From IMG/VR virus record IMGVR_UViG_3300015202_000044, positions 1 through 25,437 of that record: a stretch of DNA of 25,437 nucleotides; one strand, written 5' to 3'. Of this stretch, positions 6,613-21,708 are shown one piece after another. Each line of letters opens with the position of its first letter. Within the stretch, counting starts at the first letter, position 1. The notes below the pieces were generated by a model. It saw nothing but the letters and a program-made list of their open reading frames with translations. It was not told the origin of the DNA and made no database searches. The DNA is from a virus. A program made the translations under genes and the position numbers.

Positions 6613-7119
6613 ATGAAGATTTTGCTCATGCGGCACGGATTTTCCGGCAATCAGCTGCTCGGCAAAGACAAGAACTCGCCCGAAGATCTCGCGCGCCCGT
6701 TAGAGCCGGAAGGCGCCCAGGACGTGGAGAACCTCGCGGCCTGGCTGCTCGACAATGACATGGTGCCTAGCGCGATACGCGCATCGACCGTCAAGCGCGC
6801 CAAACAGACCGCGAAGATCTTAGGCGATGCGTTCGGGATGAAGCCGATCATGGATGACAATCTGTACCCGACGAAGCCTGTGGAGCAGGTAATCCGCAAC
6901 CTGGCAGCCGACAAGGCGCAACACCGAGTGATGCTGATCACGCACTCCAACACGATTCAAGAAGCGCTTCGTGCGCTCAACTTCCTCGATGTCGACTACG
7001 TCGATCCGATTGCATGCGCTGAAATGCGCGTAATCAAGGTCCGGCGCAAAGATGGCGCGTGGAAAGAGTCGAAGCGCATCATGCCGACCGACCTCGGCAG
7101 CGAGAACGATCTGTATTGA
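6613..7119 (+). CDS. histidine phosphatase superfamily (SixA/phosphoglycerate-mutase-like)
   Basis: Starting at ATG 6613 the protein has 168 residues, the size of the compact SixA branch. The catalytic signature RHG sits at residues 7-9 (LLMRHGFSGN), with H8 the expected phosphohistidine. The substrate-binding arginine motif reads KRAKQTA (R62), and the second catalytic His is H111 in LITHSNT. The enzyme should remove phosphate from a phosphoprotein or small phospho-compound. No head assembly role is known for the family. The gene is translationally coupled to a kinase-like gene (TGATG) and the pair sits between head genes, which looks like inserted cargo (a moron). A longer upstream frame from 6517 overlaps the previous gene and is not needed. 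Confidence 0.9.
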   Translation: MKILLMRHGFSGNQLLGKDKNSPEDLARPLEPEGAQDVENLAAWLLDNDMVPSAIRASTVKRAKQTAKILGDAFGMKPIMDDNLYPTKPVEQVIRNLAADKAQHRVMLITHSNTIQEALRALNFLDVDYVDPIACAEMRVIKVRRKDGAWKESKRIMPTDLGSENDLY

Positions 7120-7550
7120 TGTTTGCATTGCCCGATAAGCGGGCGCATGCACTCGCAACACTTCTCGCGACCTACGATCGCGTGGCCATCGTCGGTGGCC
7201 CGCGCACCGGCAAGACCACGCTGAGCGAACGCGTCAACGCCGAGCTGAAAGACGATCGCTTCGTCTTGCACAACGACGACCTACTCAAGTCGTTCGATTG
7301 GACGTCGGCGCCGTTCGGCATCATCGAGCGGCTCGCGCCGTACACCCGCTTCGTGGTCGAAGGTGTCCAGACTGCCCGCGCATTGCGCAAGGGCCTCAAG
7401 GTCGACGCTGTAATCTATCTCGACGATCCGAAGGTCCTTCGCAACAAAGGCCAGGTCTCTATGGCGAAGGGAATTGCCACCGTGTTCGCCGAGTGGCGAG
7501 CTGCGCACCCGTTCGTTCCTCTCGTGCACCCTGATCGCGGACTTTACTAA
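7119..7550 (+). CDS. P-loop kinase-like protein
   Basis: The ATG at 7119 shares bases with the phosphatase stop. The product is 143 residues: a clear Walker A (GGPRTGKTT, 26-34) after a strand VAIV, then HNDD (51-54), then a strand ending in a Walker-B-like FVVEG (78-82), VDAVIYLDDP (95-104), and an Ala-rich C-terminal helix. Size and order resemble small nucleotide or nucleoside kinases, where the post-strand acidic residues place the substrate, but a clear lid with paired Arg residues is not visible. It could phosphorylate a small molecule or nucleic-acid end, or be a P-loop ATPase without kinase activity. Its partner is the adjacent phosphatase. Confidence 0.8.
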   Translation: MFALPDKRAHALATLLATYDRVAIVGGPRTGKTTLSERVNAELKDDRFVLHNDDLLKSFDWTSAPFGIIERLAPYTRFVVEGVQTARALRKGLKVDAVIYLDDPKVLRNKGQVSMAKGIATVFAEWRAAHPFVPLVHPDRGLY

Positions 7551-15714: not shown

Positions 15715-17256
15715 ATGCCTTCTTTCGCTGTATCCGTTCCCCTCACGGGACTCTCCGCAAATGATCCGGTCCCCGGTCAGTACGTCGAGGTCAACTTCGC
15801 GCAAGGCGCGGACTCGGCCGGTACAGGCTTGCGCGCCATCTTAATTATCGCCAACAAAAGCACCGCGGGCGACGCTACGGCCGACATCGCAATCTACGGT
15901 CCCCCGTCACCGTTCGTTCCGACGGCGCCTCAGCCGCTCGCAACGGTCCAGGATTCTATCAGTCGCTTCGGTCAAGGATCGGAAGCGCACCGCATGTACA
16001 AGCGGGTCGTCGCGGTCAACCAGACCACGCCCATCTACGTTATTTGTCCCCTGGAATCCGTGGGTGCAGCGGCAACGCTGGTCGTGACGTTCGCGGTCAC
16101 GGCGACTAACGCAGGATCAGTACGCACGTGGGTCGGCGACGATTTTATCGACTCGCCCATCAGCACCAACGACACGCCAACCGCCATCGCGGCTGCCGTC
16201 GCTGCAGCGATCAACTCAAAGCTAGATTGGGCCGCGAATGCGGTTGCAGCTGTCGGCGTCTTGACAATCACTGCCAAGAACAAAGGTCTGCGCGGCAACT
16301 GGCTCCGCGGTTCGTCGAACATCGTCGGCACTGGCGTCGGCACCACGTCAAGCGTCGCGATCCCGACGTTCTTCACCGGCGGCACCACGGCAGATAGCAA
16401 CGCCAACGCGCTCGCGACGATCCTCACGCAGCGCTTTTACTACGTCGTCTCGGCTGCCGAAGATGCCGCGCAACTCGGTGCGCTTCTCTCGCAGCTCGGA
16501 ACGCAGGCGCTCCCGACGCAAGGACTCCGGCAGTGCAGTTTTGCCGGCAGCATCGACACGCTCGCCAACGTCACGACAATCGCGACCGGAATCAATTCGG
16601 CACGATGCGAAATTCCGTGGCTCGCGCAAGCGGACCTTACGCCCGCTGAACTCGCTGCCAACTATGCCGCCGTATGCTCGCTCTATGAGTCGTCGACGAC
16701 CCCGCGCCTGAATCTATCGGGCTTCGGCCTCTCCGCCAACGATGCGGCCAACTGGAAGGTGCGCGCGCCGCGCTCTGGCGCCGTCCCGTCACGCTCGCAG
16801 CGCCTCACCGCGCTAAACAACGGCATCACCACGATCAACGTGCTGCCGACAGGCACGACCTACCTCGAGAAGCGCGTCACCACGCGCAGCTTGTCGGGAG
16901 CGAACAACGACTACCGTATCCGCGACCCTCACAAGGTCCGCGTATGCGACTTCTTCGCGGACGATTGGGTCGCGAAACAGCAAGCGCAGTTTCAGGGCAA
17001 AGTGATCGGCGACGATCCGGTGCCTGGTCAGCGTACGCCGGGCCCTCTCGTGCTTACTCCGCGCGTGATGAAAGCCGCCGCGTGGAAGCTTATTGACGAC
17101 TACGCCGACAAGTTCCTTCTGCAGAATCCCGACCAGATCAAGGCTGCCGTAATTTGCAATCGCGAGCCCGGCACGACCAGCCGAGTCAGTACACGCTTCG
17201 CTCTGCAAGTGATTGATATAGCCGACCAATTCGGAAGCGCGATCGATCAGATCTAA
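15715..17256 (+). CDS. tail sheath protein (Mu gpL-like)
   Basis: A 513-residue protein near the length of Mu gpL. It starts three bases after the preceding stop, with GGAG close by. The N-terminal domain (MPSFAVSVPLTGL...GQYVEVNF) and the polymorphic surface domain in the middle (TTSSVAIPTFFTGGTT) precede the conserved C-terminal core with KVRAPRSGAVPSRSQRL, ATTINVLPTG-like strands, YLEKRVTTRSLS and a final ICNREPGTTSRVS segment. The sheath polymerises around the tube and contracts during infection. It defines the phage as a contractile (myovirus-type) one. Confidence 0.93.
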   Translation: MPSFAVSVPLTGLSANDPVPGQYVEVNFAQGADSAGTGLRAILIIANKSTAGDATADIAIYGPPSPFVPTAPQPLATVQDSISRFGQGSEAHRMYKRVVAVNQTTPIYVICPLESVGAAATLVVTFAVTATNAGSVRTWVGDDFIDSPISTNDTPTAIAAAVAAAINSKLDWAANAVAAVGVLTITAKNKGLRGNWLRGSSNIVGTGVGTTSSVAIPTFFTGGTTADSNANALATILTQRFYYVVSAAEDAAQLGALLSQLGTQALPTQGLRQCSFAGSIDTLANVTTIATGINSARCEIPWLAQADLTPAELAANYAAVCSLYESSTTPRLNLSGFGLSANDAANWKVRAPRSGAVPSRSQRLTALNNGITTINVLPTGTTYLEKRVTTRSLSGANNDYRIRDPHKVRVCDFFADDWVAKQQAQFQGKVIGDDPVPGQRTPGPLVLTPRVMKAAAWKLIDDYADKFLLQNPDQIKAAVICNREPGTTSRVSTRFALQVIDIADQFGSAIDQI

Positions 17257-17381: not shown

Positions 17382-17753
17382 ATGGCGTTGCAGCTCTATA
17401 CTTTAGCATCGATTTTCGTAGACGGATCATTACTCGCCGAGGAAGTCAGCGTCGGCATTGATCGGAATATGCGTGTCCAGGAAGTGATGACCGTAGCCAA
17501 AGGGTTCGCTGGTATTTCCCCCGGCGCCGCTATGATCATGATTACCGTCGACAACGCGGTGCCTGCTGCTGACTTCGAGCTCAACCCCGGCGCCCGCATG
17601 AAGGGCTTGGCCGTGGTCGAACTCACGGTCTTTGCTGCCGGTCGCACGCTGACGTCGAAGGGCTTCTTTATCGAAGACAATTTCAGCCACGCGGTGAACA
17701 GCGAATCAAAGCTGAACATCAAGTTCGTTGGCGAAATGGCCGATTGGGTCTGA
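17382..17753 (+). CDS. tail tube protein (Mu gpM-like)
   Basis: 123 residues, about the length of Mu gpM, with ribosome site AAGGA (17369-17373). Strand-rich segments include IFVDGSLLAEEVSVGID, VMTVAKGFAGISPG, DFELNPGARMKGL and GFFIEDNFSHAVNSESKLNIKFVG. The tube is the inner cylinder through which DNA passes and which the sheath surrounds. Position after the sheath and before the tail chaperone matches Mu. Confidence 0.85.
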   Translation: MALQLYTLASIFVDGSLLAEEVSVGIDRNMRVQEVMTVAKGFAGISPGAAMIMITVDNAVPAADFELNPGARMKGLAVVELTVFAAGRTLTSKGFFIEDNFSHAVNSESKLNIKFVGEMADWV

Positions 17754-17758
17754 TCTAG

Positions 17759-18388
17759 ATGGCCGACGAAATGAAGCCGTCCGAACTTTGGGCGGAGATC
17801 ATCGCGCTCCCTCGCCCGTCCCGTGTCGTCGAGTTTCCGCGCAAGAAAGCGGACGGCGCTGCGGTCGGTGAGTTTTTGATGCAGGTGCTGAAGCAAGAAG
17901 AGCAAATGCTTTGCGCTGCCGCGGCAGAACGCTTTACGCGCAAACTTTTGAAAGATGACGCCCCGAAAAACGGCGACCTTGCACGCGGCTACAACGACAT
18001 CTATTCGAACGCCGCGGCAGTGGAAATCTTGTTTCGCGCGTGTCGCACGAAGGACGACTTGATCAAGCCGCTCTTTCCGTCGCCCGATGTGCTTCGTCAA
18101 AATTTAACGAATGACGAACTCGGCGTGCTGATGAGCATCTACTACACGGTGCAAACCGAGCTCGGCCCCATCGTCGCCTATCTTTCCGAAGAAGAAATCG
18201 AGGCATGGGTCGTGCGCCTGGTTGAAGGCGGCAGTAGCTACCCTTTAGATTCGCTGTCCTCGGAAGCGCAGAAACAATTGTTGATGCGTTTGGCATCCCG
18301 GCTGTACAAGCCACCGACGGACACATCCTTGCCTGGATCGCCAGCCGAAGAGGGCGCGACGAACTCATTGCCAAGCGAGACCGCTTGA
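17759..18388 (+). CDS. tail assembly chaperone (gpG-like, upstream frame)
   Basis: A 209-residue, charged helical protein between tube and tape measure, the place of tail assembly chaperones in nearly all long-tailed phages. It has helical blocks (KQEEQMLCAAAAERFTRKLL, near 41-60; YNDIYSNAAAVEILFRACR, near 76-94) and a possible disordered Pro/Gly/Ser end (about 188-209). A -1 slippery heptamer, CCCTTTA, lies at 18241-18247, near codon 163, so a second, longer chaperone is likely (separate entry). Chaperones coat the tape measure before tube assembly. The family name is inferred from position and the frameshift layout. Confidence 0.75.
   Translation: MADEMKPSELWAEIIALPRPSRVVEFPRKKADGAAVGEFLMQVLKQEEQMLCAAAAERFTRKLLKDDAPKNGDLARGYNDIYSNAAAVEILFRACRTKDDLIKPLFPSPDVLRQNLTNDELGVLMSIYYTVQTELGPIVAYLSEEEIEAWVVRLVEGGSSYPLDSLSSEAQKQLLMRLASRLYKPPTDTSLPGSPAEEGATNSLPSETA
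18241..18268 (+). promoter_or_regulatory. programmed -1 frameshift site (slippery heptamer plus weak hairpin)
   Basis: The heptamer C-CCT-TTA occupies 18241-18247. In the chaperone frame the codons are CCT and TTA; slipping back one base gives CCC and TTT, an exact X-XXY-YYZ pattern. The -1 frame has a stop at 18235-18237, six codons before useful slipping, and is open from 18238 to 18468. A small hairpin (CGCT 18252-18255 with AGCG 18265-18268, plus TC/GA inside) starts five bases downstream. The heptamer is strong evidence; the hairpin is weak. Confidence 0.7.
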
Positions 18389-18468
18389 CCGAAGACCAGG
18401 CCGCTACGAGGAAGCTCGGCGACCTTGGCATCGCATTGGCTAACCCGCCGTTCTGGAAGAAAGTCTAA
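18247..18468 (+). CDS. frameshift extension of the tail chaperone (gpGT-like, -1 frame)
   Basis: The reading frame after the slip runs 73 codons from 18247 to TAA 18466-18468, with the TAA overlapping the tape-measure ATG (TAATG). The predicted full fusion is 236 residues. The sequence looks coding: VDAFGIPAVQATDGHILAW, then RDRLTEDQAATRKLGDL and a closing NPPFWKKV, typical of a second chaperone half that touches the tape measure or tube. It has no ATG of its own. An alternative is a 27-codon gene starting at TTG 18385 (TTGA overlap), which would leave the upstream open part unexplained. Confidence 0.65.
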   Translation, partial: RFAVLGSAETIVDAFGIPAVQATDGHILAWIASRRGRDELIAKRDRLTEDQAATRKLGDLGIALANPPFWKKV

Positions 18469-20705
18469 TGCCCGCAAGCGTCGTCGTCGACTTTCAGGTG
18501 GCTGGTATCTCCAAGGTGCAGCAGGCTTTTGCGACCGTCGAGAAGGCCAGCATCAAAGCCGACAAGGCACGCACGCAAGCCGAAAAGACTGGCTCAAAAG
18601 AGCGCGAGCAAATCCTTGTCAAGGAAACGCGCGAAAAGGAGCGCGAGCTCCAGAAGCTTGGCCGTGAGGCGGACAAGTGGAGAAAAGAAGAGATTCGCGG
18701 CGCTGAGAAGGCTGAGCGCGCGAAGATCATCGAAGTCGAGCGATCGACGCGGATGATGAACCAAATCCGCGAGCGGTCGGCCACGATGGCGGGGCAGATT
18801 GCACGACGCGAGGCAGACGCCGAGATTCGAGAGATAAAGCGCGTGGCCGAAGCGCGTGGCCGATTTCGCAAAGCGATCGGCAGCGCAGGCGTCAACTCGG
18901 TAAAAGGAATGGCCGGCACTGCGATCGGAATGGCTGGCGGCGCTCTTGCGCTAGGCGGCGGATTCGCCATTGCCGACGCCGTTTCTGGTTACAGATCGGC
19001 AGACCGTGCGGCGGTGATGACCTCGAACGCCGGCTACATTCCAGGGCAGACTCCGCGCGTCGATCCCAAGATCATCATGGCCCAGGCGAGTGCCATCGCC
19101 ATTAAAACGGGACTCGACAAGACGGACGTCATTGGCGGCCTCGGGACTTATGCTGATCGATCTAGCGATCTCGCTGGCGGCATGAGGAATCTCGACTTCT
19201 TCTCGAAGCTATCCAAGGGCAGCGGCGCGAACTTCGGCGAAGTGATGGACGCCGCCGGCATGATGAAGGCGCAAAACGCCAACCTGTCCGACACTGAGAT
19301 GCAAAACATGATGCGCGGCATCGTCGGTCAAGGAAAACTTGGCGCGGTTTCGTTCAAGGAACTCGCGCATTCGGCCGCGGTCACAACTTCAACGTCGGGT
19401 ATGTACGCCGGCAACCAAGCGGAAAATCAGCGCAAGCTCCTCGGCTTGCAGCAGATCGCAGTGAAGACGGCTGGCAGCTCGGACGACGCGGCCACGGTCG
19501 TATCGCGATTCGGCTCCGACATCATGGCGCACACCCCTTTGCTCAAGAAGCACGGTGTGACGGCCACCGATAGCCAAGGCCAGCTTCTCGATGCCGGCAC
19601 GATCCTGGGTCAGATGTTCGACAAGTCGGGCGGAAACCTCAACACGATGCACGAGATGGGCGGGCTCGGAAAAGAGTCGGTCAAGCTCGCCGAAGCGCTT
19701 GCGCCGGTCTATCGCCTCGCGGAAGCAACGAAAAAGGGCAGCGGCGGCGCTGCGGTGACGGCCGAGGTCTCGAAATACGAGAAGGCCGGATACTCGCAGG
19801 AAGATATTGATAAGGATTTCTCAGAGGTGATGAAGACCTCCACGGAACGCATGGATCTCGCGACCACGCAGATCAAAGAGATTCTCGAGACGAAGTTGGC
19901 GCCGTATCTTGAGCGCTTCGCCGCGGCACTGCCTGGGCTCATGCCGAAGATCGAGCACCTGATCGACGCGTTCGATTCGCTCGCGAAAATCTTTCTCGAC
20001 AACCCCATCAAGGGAATCGGCGCCGTCATTGCCGCCAAGCTCACGGCGGAGCTCGCGAAGGCGGGAATAGCCGAACTGGTCAAAAGGATTTTTGCGGAAT
20101 CAGCTGCCGGAAAAACGGGCGGTGCACTTGTGGAGGCCGTGCTTGATGCGGGCACGACTGCAGGCGCCGGTGGTGGCGGCGGCGGACTGATCGCTGCGCT
20201 TGGCGGCGGAGCAAGCGTTGCGACCGCAGCGGGTGTCGGCGTTGTCCTCGCAGGCGCCGCCTACGGAACATACATGCAGAACGATCCTGGACAGAACGCC
20301 GCCGACGCGGAAGCCATGCGTCGATCCAACCCCGCGGAGTACGCACGTCAGGCATCGGCACGCGAGCAGCAAAATAACACGCTCGACAAGGGATCACGGG
20401 AGTACGCCGCGAACCTCGCCTTTATTCATGGCTCCGGCGGATCGGGCGGATTCGGCAAGGTCTCGGCAGGCGATCAAAGCATCATCAATACCTCGAACGA
20501 CAGAGGTGGCTTGACGGATTCCGCGCTAAGAAAAATGCAGTTTGGCGACGCATCTAGCAAGCAAAAGCTCAACGTCGACCAGCAGGAACTCACCCGGCAG
20601 CTGTCGGCGGCTCTCGGCGGCGCGGTGAATAATCAGAAGGGTAGCGTAAACGACCCATCGCGTAACGACAGTCTCGCTACGCGAGCTCGCGGCGGGGCGC
20701 AGTAA
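18468..20705 (+). CDS. tape measure protein
   Basis: The longest gene in the window (745 residues), starting in overlap with the chaperone-extension stop. Residues about 15-135 are a charged coiled coil; about 141-172 is a Gly/Ala-rich hydrophobic segment; a helical region with DVIGGLGTYADRSSDLAGG follows (about 215-235); another helical block precedes a second Gly-rich hydrophobic segment (about 560-605); the C-terminus is polar and disordered. Tape measures occupy the tube lumen, set tail length and help DNA cross the inner membrane. At 1.5 Angstrom per residue, 745 residues give about 110 nm of tail (an estimate from the usual rule). Confidence 0.92.
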   Translation: MPASVVVDFQVAGISKVQQAFATVEKASIKADKARTQAEKTGSKEREQILVKETREKERELQKLGREADKWRKEEIRGAEKAERAKIIEVERSTRMMNQIRERSATMAGQIARREADAEIREIKRVAEARGRFRKAIGSAGVNSVKGMAGTAIGMAGGALALGGGFAIADAVSGYRSADRAAVMTSNAGYIPGQTPRVDPKIIMAQASAIAIKTGLDKTDVIGGLGTYADRSSDLAGGMRNLDFFSKLSKGSGANFGEVMDAAGMMKAQNANLSDTEMQNMMRGIVGQGKLGAVSFKELAHSAAVTTSTSGMYAGNQAENQRKLLGLQQIAVKTAGSSDDAATVVSRFGSDIMAHTPLLKKHGVTATDSQGQLLDAGTILGQMFDKSGGNLNTMHEMGGLGKESVKLAEALAPVYRLAEATKKGSGGAAVTAEVSKYEKAGYSQEDIDKDFSEVMKTSTERMDLATTQIKEILETKLAPYLERFAAALPGLMPKIEHLIDAFDSLAKIFLDNPIKGIGAVIAAKLTAELAKAGIAELVKRIFAESAAGKTGGALVEAVLDAGTTAGAGGGGGGLIAALGGGASVATAAGVGVVLAGAAYGTYMQNDPGQNAADAEAMRRSNPAEYARQASAREQQNNTLDKGSREYAANLAFIHGSGGSGGFGKVSAGDQSIINTSNDRGGLTDSALRKMQFGDASSKQKLNVDQQELTRQLSAALGGAVNNQKGSVNDPSRNDSLATRARGGAQ

Positions 20706-20951
20706 CTACCGACGCGCGCGGACGAAGATAAGGGCTGCCGCGAAAGCCAGGAACGCCGTGACAATTTCGCCGTGAAATACGGTGTCCTCAGCTGCGCAAC
20801 CAGATGCGCCAGCGCAATAGGTCAGCATTCCGGAAAAGACTGCAAAGCAAAGGCAGGCGGAAAACGCAGCCGGAGCGACGCCAAGGCGGGCGCGTTCGGC
20901 CTCCTCGATTCGAACGCGCTCTTGAATTTCGCGACGCTCCTCGTCGTTCAT
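20706..20951 (-). CDS. small two-helix membrane protein
   Basis: Encoded on the minus strand, starting at 20951 with a 4-base overlap (ATGA) with the stop of the lipoprotein gene upstream. Its stop abuts the tape-measure stop tail to tail. The 81 residues hold an acidic/basic N-terminal helix (ERREIQERVRIEEAERARL), then two hydrophobic segments (about 28-48 and 60-77) and a basic end (VRARR). Possible roles: holin-like protein, superinfection-exclusion membrane partner, or an anchor for the lipoprotein. The sequence alone does not decide. The two cysteines and the loop between the helices (CAGASGCAAED) would face one side of the membrane. Confidence 0.7.
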   Translation of the reverse strand: MNDEERREIQERVRIEEAERARLGVAPAAFSACLCFAVFSGMLTYCAGASGCAAEDTVFHGEIVTAFLAFAAALIFVRARR

Positions 20952-21673
20952 GGCTGAATGCAGAGTTCCGCATCGCCGAGACTGCAGTCGACGACTTGAC
21001 CTGTCTCAAAAGAGAAGCAGACGCCGTCAGCGGCTGTAAACACCACGAAGGTCGACGCGACAAATACTTTCTGATCCCAGGTGGGCTGACAGTTGCTGTA
21101 GAGGGTTAGCCTCTGAAGCTCAGTAAGGGTCGGCCGCCGACTACCTGGATAATACGTCGAGCATGCGGGCAACCTCGTCGAGATGACATCTCGGTTCCAA
21201 ACGAGGCCAGTGGTGCCGTCCGTCGCGTGCTCGCCCACAATAGTCCAGCGCGATCCCGGGTCCGTGCAGCAGGCTTGGCTGTCGTCGGTAACCCACGCGG
21301 TGCCGTTGCACACCTGCTCCGAATAAGTCTTGCACCGAACGGCATTCGTCGCGCAGTACGGCGCGGCATCCGCGATCGATGCATCACTCGGATCGACGAT
21401 CCGAGCGTCGGTATCCGAAGCCGCGTCTGAAGCGTCAGCGATCTCGGCATCGAGTAGGCCCGCGTCAGCAACCGGATCGCCCGCATCGACATCAGCCGCG
21501 TCCCCATCGCCCTGAACGATGTAACGCGACGCGGCCGAGAGTACGCGTGACACGCCCGCATCCGCGGGGACAACGACCGTTCCGCCATCCGTTGCGGGCT
21601 CGTAACCAATAACCGCCGCCGACCCGCTGCACCCCACCAACGCGACCAACGAAACCCACCCCAATAAACGCAT
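20948..21673 (-). CDS. lipoprotein with Asp/Ala linker and DUF1566-like domain
   Basis: Minus-strand gene of 241 residues from ATG 21671-21673; a TTG nine bases further out is a less likely start. A short signal peptide ends in a lipobox LVGC with C15 as the lipidated residue. Residues 57-104 are a low-complexity Asp/Ala linker, then a Cys-rich domain (ten Cys from 107 on) with TGLVWNR and RRPTLTELQRL, the pattern of DUF1566-type proteins (about 143-241). The style is common in Myxococcota secreted lipoproteins. It would sit on the outer or inner membrane surface. Opposite orientation to the tail genes suggests an independently transcribed moron that changes the lysogen surface. No spanin-like coiled coil is seen. 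Confidence 0.85.
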   Translation of the reverse strand: MRLLGWVSLVALVGCSGSAAVIGYEPATDGGTVVVPADAGVSRVLSAASRYIVQGDGDAADVDAGDPVADAGLLDAEIADASDAASDTDARIVDPSDASIADAAPYCATNAVRCKTYSEQVCNGTAWVTDDSQACCTDPGSRWTIVGEHATDGTTGLVWNRDVISTRLPACSTYYPGSRRPTLTELQRLTLYSNCQPTWDQKVFVASTFVVFTAADGVCFSFETGQVVDCSLGDAELCIQP

Positions 21674-21708
21674 GGAACACAACGTACAGCTGTTCCGTGC
21701 TTCGCGAA
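21674..21708. promoter_or_regulatory. inverted repeats in the divergent lipoprotein/gpN-like gap
   Basis: GGAACA (21674-21679) and TGTTCC (21691-21696) form an imperfectly spaced dyad with 11 bases between, directly next to the lipoprotein start codon. Palindromes ACAGCTGT (21686-21693) and TTCGCGAA (21701-21708) lie inside and just beyond it. The 60-base gap separates two divergently transcribed genes, so an operator for the lipoprotein cassette is plausible. No clear -35/-10 pair could be assigned. Confidence 0.4.

Follow-up and report, generated by a model that had tools for sequence, protein, structure and literature searches.

Computational evidence for programmed −1 frameshifting in a tail assembly chaperone gene from a Mu-like phage with a contractile tail

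Frameshifting in the tail assembly chaperone gene is textbook knowledge for long-tailed phages, and the conserved G/GT frameshift has been reviewed (PMC5009743). In the lambda gpG/gpGT system the gene lies before that of the tape measure, and the shift is in the −1 direction, at an in-phase X XXY YYZ site, into a downstream frame that has no start codon of its own (PMC5009743). For Mu, a −2 frameshift has been described in gene 41/42 (PMC5009743; PMC2628397, citing Xu 2004), and the Mu-like phage KS10 has been reported to have no recognisable frameshift site (PMC2628397). Among other Mu-like phages, ST405-OXA48phi1.1, SuMu, PBb002 and AH07 have a chaperone gene between the tube and tape measure genes with an in-phase heptamer, AAAAAAG or TTTTTTG/C, and in PBb002 and AH07 the chaperone can be read as a −1 fusion.

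The locus described here was found in a virus record of 25,437 bases, analysed whole and referred to below as the window, which carries a Mu-like contractile-tail module. The features of this module and of the frameshift site are given on the + strand. The tail sheath gene (15715–17256; phrog_165, E 5e-62) is followed by that of the presumed tail tube protein (17382–17753). The latter has no Pfam or PHROG match and was assigned from its position and from 64% identical homologues at the corresponding position of related contigs. The 209-residue 0-frame chaperone (17759–18388; G-like) lies between the tube gene and the tape measure gene (18468–20705; phrog_794, E 8e-7; PhageMin_Tail, E 4e-4), and DNA-circularisation and gpP-like genes are found further downstream. 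The sheath, gpP and DNA-circularisation neighbours are Mu-like and the gene order is that of Mu, but the shift is −1 in the window and −2 in Mu.

No Pfam or PHROG match above cut-off, tail-chaperone families included, was obtained for the window chaperone or for 12 members of its family, and no PDB sequence match was found for the window chaperone. The first-pass annotation had called the gene a tail chaperone, a label that formerly rested on position. The 0-frame protein was modelled with AlphaFold (mean pLDDT 75, with most of residues 21 to 130 above 90 except in a loop) and the model was compared with known structures. Both searches ranked the HK97 tail assembly chaperone gp13 (PDB 2OB9) highest (Foldseek, probability 0.99 and E 0.07; VIA, Z 9.4, rmsd 3.8, 103/107 residues, 12% identity). 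The next matches were YqbN (Z 7.5), which we take to be a prophage protein, and a PICI-like element protein (Z 5.1); below Z 4 the folds were unrelated. The predicted N-terminal domain therefore has a known tail-chaperone fold, which supports the label. The likeness to HK97 gp13 is one of fold and not of sequence, and HK97 is a siphophage whereas the window phage has a contractile sheath.

The first-pass annotation had also claimed an in-phase CCCTTTA heptamer in the chaperone frame. This was borne out: the 0-frame codons TAC CCT TTA GAT place C CCT TTA, at 18241–18247, in the phase X XXY YYZ. Its further claim that the −1 frame is closed at 18235–18237 and stays open for 73 codons after the slip held on direct reading, and all of its coordinates are right. 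As the TAG at 18235–18237 shuts the −1 frame, any shift must follow it. From 18238 the frame is open, with 73 codons after the slip (18247–18465) and a TAA stop at 18466–18468, which overlaps the tape measure start (ATG 18468) in the sequence TAATG (18466–18470). The unshifted product would have 209 residues and the fusion 236, so that in the window the shift would extend a shorter protein at its C-terminus. By itself the 7-mer CCCTTTA is at chance level, with one copy seen and 0.82 expected per window.

Homologous loci were collected with the window tube protein, which found relatives, and then with an alignment of four chaperone fusions, which found more in viral contigs and in one Polyangiaceae MAG. 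A scan of Myxococcota added two genomic copies. Single-protein scans of the viral contig collection with the chaperone and with the sheath found nothing, a second alignment scan of it gave no new contigs, and the plasmid collection gave nothing. After removal of duplicates 22 distinct loci were kept, with identities down to about 28–30%. One further Myxococcota hit (L049, E 4e-11) was excluded, being without a matching −1 frame or motif. Among known phage records there was one clear relative, MW202476.1 (73981–75540; 30% identical), in which the chaperone is annotated as 'hypothetical protein' over the 0-frame only. That record is labelled Siphoviridae, yet a Mu-like contractile tail sheath is present in it. 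Assembly error was set aside, the same arrangement being seen in independent contigs.

At the equivalent codon 13 of the 22 loci have CCCTTTA, six CCCTTTC, one TTTTTTC and two CCCTATC. It is this conservation of CCCTTTA/C in 19 of the 22, and not the bare heptamer, that lifts the site far above chance. Codon usage in these sequences (63% G+C) points the same way: TTA makes up only 21 of 2132 Leu codons overall (1%) but all 13 of those at the slip site, and CCT 182 of 1251 Pro codons overall but all 21 at the slip site; the loci are related and these counts are not independent draws. In a tree of the loci the deepest split is fully supported, and CCCTTTA occurs on either side of it. CCCTTTC is found in a derived group, within which one locus (L013) has TTA. 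The first-pass annotation had named homologues without the heptamer and the −1 frame as the finding that would overturn it. Over this deep tree the heptamer, the −1 frame and its motif were instead found to be conserved.

The −1 extension (18247–18468, 73 codons plus TAA) is a T-like domain that could be aligned in all 22 loci and is predicted to be mostly helical. Its conserved core, about 35 codons (18247–18351 in the window, RFAVLG...FGIP...DGHILAWIASRR), lies within the 0-frame. The motif PFRFALLG...YGVP...LLDGH.LCW.AARR, at least in recognisable form, is present in every locus, with the general pattern P[FY]R-F-ALLG-x-x(E/D)-P-x-x-[FY]-[FY]-G-V-P-...-L-L-D-G-[HQ]-x-L-x-W-x-A-x-[RK]-[RK]. 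In the three most divergent loci there is a 22-codon insertion, present in both frames. The 73-codon length and the TAATG junction, both pointed out in the first-pass annotation, are present in the window but peculiar to its phage, the homologous −1 frames having 39–72 codons.

The variability of codon positions was compared, as mean pairwise difference, among the 19 loci whose alignment is free of gaps. Upstream of the slip, position 3 of the 0-frame is the most variable (0.56, against 0.41 and 0.37 for the others). In the overlap it is position 2 of the 0-frame, which is position 3 of the −1 frame (0.47, against 0.29 and 0.39). Sliding windows located this switch no more than about ten codons past the heptamer. 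In the overlap, identity at the amino-acid level was highest in the −1 frame (0.51), followed by the 0-frame (0.41) and the +1 frame (0.33). The downstream frame is −1 in 22/22 loci, and a Mu-type −2 (+1) downstream frame was not found.

These results bear on the possibility that the −1 frame constitutes a gene by itself, with a start codon of its own, or that it remains untranslated. The chance-level occurrence of the bare heptamer would fit such an explanation, as would a TTG at 18385 in the window. That TTG is the earliest possible start codon (ATG/GTG/TTG) in the frame, but it lies 48 codons past the slip codon and beyond the conserved core, so internal initiation there cannot make the core. 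Nor is there a start codon at a conserved place in the −1 frame among the 22 loci, so that the downstream frame is coding without a start of its own, and the core is conserved with the third-position variability of a translated frame. This explanation is largely refuted already by the conservation, and we consider it very improbable.

The conserved site, the −1 motif, the shift in variability, the usual presence of a Shine–Dalgarno (SD)-like element (see below) and the HK97 chaperone fold make it very probable that a genuine programmed −1 frameshift like that of lambda G/GT occurs here, in a sequence family that is new. The position between the tube and tape measure genes and the other in-phase heptamers in the corresponding gene of neighbouring Mu-like phages also speak for it. 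The frameshift interpretation of the first-pass annotation is supported by the same conservation of heptamer, −1 frame and motif, together with the tail-chaperone fold upstream. We conclude with high confidence that ribosomes make a programmed −1 shift at C CCU UUA in the chaperone gene of this Mu-like contractile-tailed phage.

Stimulatory elements were sought on both sides of the site. Across the 22 homologues an SD-like element lies mostly 8–12 nt upstream of the heptamer, with a mean anti-SD duplex energy of −8.5 kcal/mol; for control stretches of these genes the means were about −2.5 to −5. The upstream stimulator of dnaX is arranged in this way (PMC3711429). The element of the window (AAGGCGGC, 18225–18232) ends 8 nt before the heptamer and, at −5.5 kcal/mol, is among the weak ones, 13% of control stretches being as strong. 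A conserved downstream RNA structure was not supported: folding was hardly stronger than that of shuffled sequences (mean z −0.5 to −0.7), and no structure common to the loci was seen by eye. This result, the weak element of the window and the CCCTATC sites of two loci (see below) count against the frameshift interpretation.

With site, phase, conservation, −1 coding and fold established computationally, a mechanism may be proposed in which rate, product and division of labour follow the analogy with lambda (PMC5009743). Most ribosomes would make the 209-residue chaperone. A minority, aided by the upstream SD-like element, would slip back one base, with tRNA-Pro moving from CCU to CCC and tRNA-Leu from UUA to UUU in a tandem slip (tRNA-Leu or tRNA-Phe across the loci, at UUA/C). 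The shifted product would then have 236 residues, the last 73 from the −1 frame, and its junction would read Y-P-L-R if the A-site codon is decoded first. The predicted tryptic junction peptides are LVEGGSSYPLR for a slip after A-site decoding and LVEGGSSYPFR for a slip before it, with LVEGGSSYPLDSLSSEAQK for the unshifted protein. On the model of lambda G and GT, the N-terminal domain shared by both products would form a coat on the tape measure, and tube subunits would be recruited by the −1 extension.

A variant of this mechanism is that tRNA-Pro in the P site slips alone (CCU to CCC), the following codon contributing solely by being decoded slowly. The retention of CCT in 21/22 loci would suit it, and in the two loci with CCCTATC (L016, 4480–4486; L028, 2069–2075) TTA/TTC is replaced by ATC, which cannot re-pair well, so that pairing after a tandem slip would be poor, although the −1 frame is still conserved there. 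In L016 the site is overlapped by T TTC CCT; in L028 there is no good alternative and no SD-like element. These two sites, which misfit the rule in part, may reflect P-site slippage or simply be weaker sites. Against the variant, TTA/TTC is retained in 19/22 loci, both codons re-pairing as TTT and the rare TTA being among them, and in one further locus (L021, 3740–3760) both codons have changed together to TTTTTTC. We consider a P-site slip alone unlikely.

The slip site of L021 falls within nine consecutive T (TTTTTTTTTC), a stretch on which RNA polymerase could slip, and this raises the alternative that the −1 product arises by transcriptional slippage and not on the ribosome. The other 21 loci carry just CCC TTT or CCC TAT, which is too short for known polymerase slippage. 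Transcriptional slippage could occur alongside ribosomal frameshifting at the L021 site; as the source of the −1 product in its place it is extremely improbable.

While frameshifting into the −1 frame is supported, the relation of the two frames needs a fuller description than the first-pass annotation gave it, because the 0-frame tail after the slip (18248–18388 in the window) is also under constraint. The 0-frame is open through the −1 core in 22/22 loci; when the −1 protein was recoded synonymously it stayed open in 68% of cases on average. Four-fold third positions differed between pairs at 0.59 upstream of the slip, but at 0.41 (−1 frame) and 0.44 (0-frame) in the overlap, and column bootstraps separated the overlap from the upstream region in both frames (0.0005 and 0.001, respectively). 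Past the slip the 0-frame has 40–96 codons and the −1 frame 39–73 codons, and the 0-frame part is the longer in 19/22 loci. The window is one of the three exceptions, in which the fusion is longer. As the −1 core lies wholly inside a 0-frame tail that is itself constrained, frameshifting in 19/22 loci would exchange C-termini and not lengthen the protein. It may be, with somewhat less than even probability, that the frameshift is a C-terminus switch over a truly dual-coding stretch of about 40 codons, and that the tail of the unshifted protein, usually the longer of the two, has a function distinct from that of the T-like −1 domain and is not a mere ending.

In this respect the family differs from lambda, its 0-frame continuing for 40–96 codons past the slip and containing the whole T-like core, and from the four Mu-like phages above, in which the 0-frame stop lies 18–99 nt downstream of the point where the heptamer starts, compared with more than 120 nt here. 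Its heptamer, CCCTTT[AC], also sets it apart from both, and no relation to lambda gpG/gpGT was found at the level of Pfam or PHROG. A literature search for CCCTTTA as a frameshift site found no paper. What is new is the sequence family, its signature CCCTTT[AC] and a −1 core that is nested completely; frameshifting in tail chaperones was already known. The family adds to the frameshifting tail chaperones one without Pfam or PHROG match, from uncultivated phages and Myxococcota genomes. Gene callers miss half of its product, as in MW202476.1, and CCCTTT[AC] together with the motif DGH.L.W.A.R provides a search signature for the annotation of metagenomic phages. The fully nested dual-coding arrangement is also a clean natural case in which to study the role of the unshifted C-terminus.

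Some other genes of the window may be mentioned. Between the tape measure and DNA-circularisation genes, and opposite to the tail genes, lies an ORF of 244 codons (20948–21682, − strand) with a lipoprotein-like N-terminus and no Pfam match, which looks like an inserted cargo gene. In the head module, within the interval between the portal and capsid genes, a histidine phosphatase superfamily protein (6613–7119; His_Phos_1, E 1e-13) is followed by a P-loop kinase-like ORF (7113–7550).
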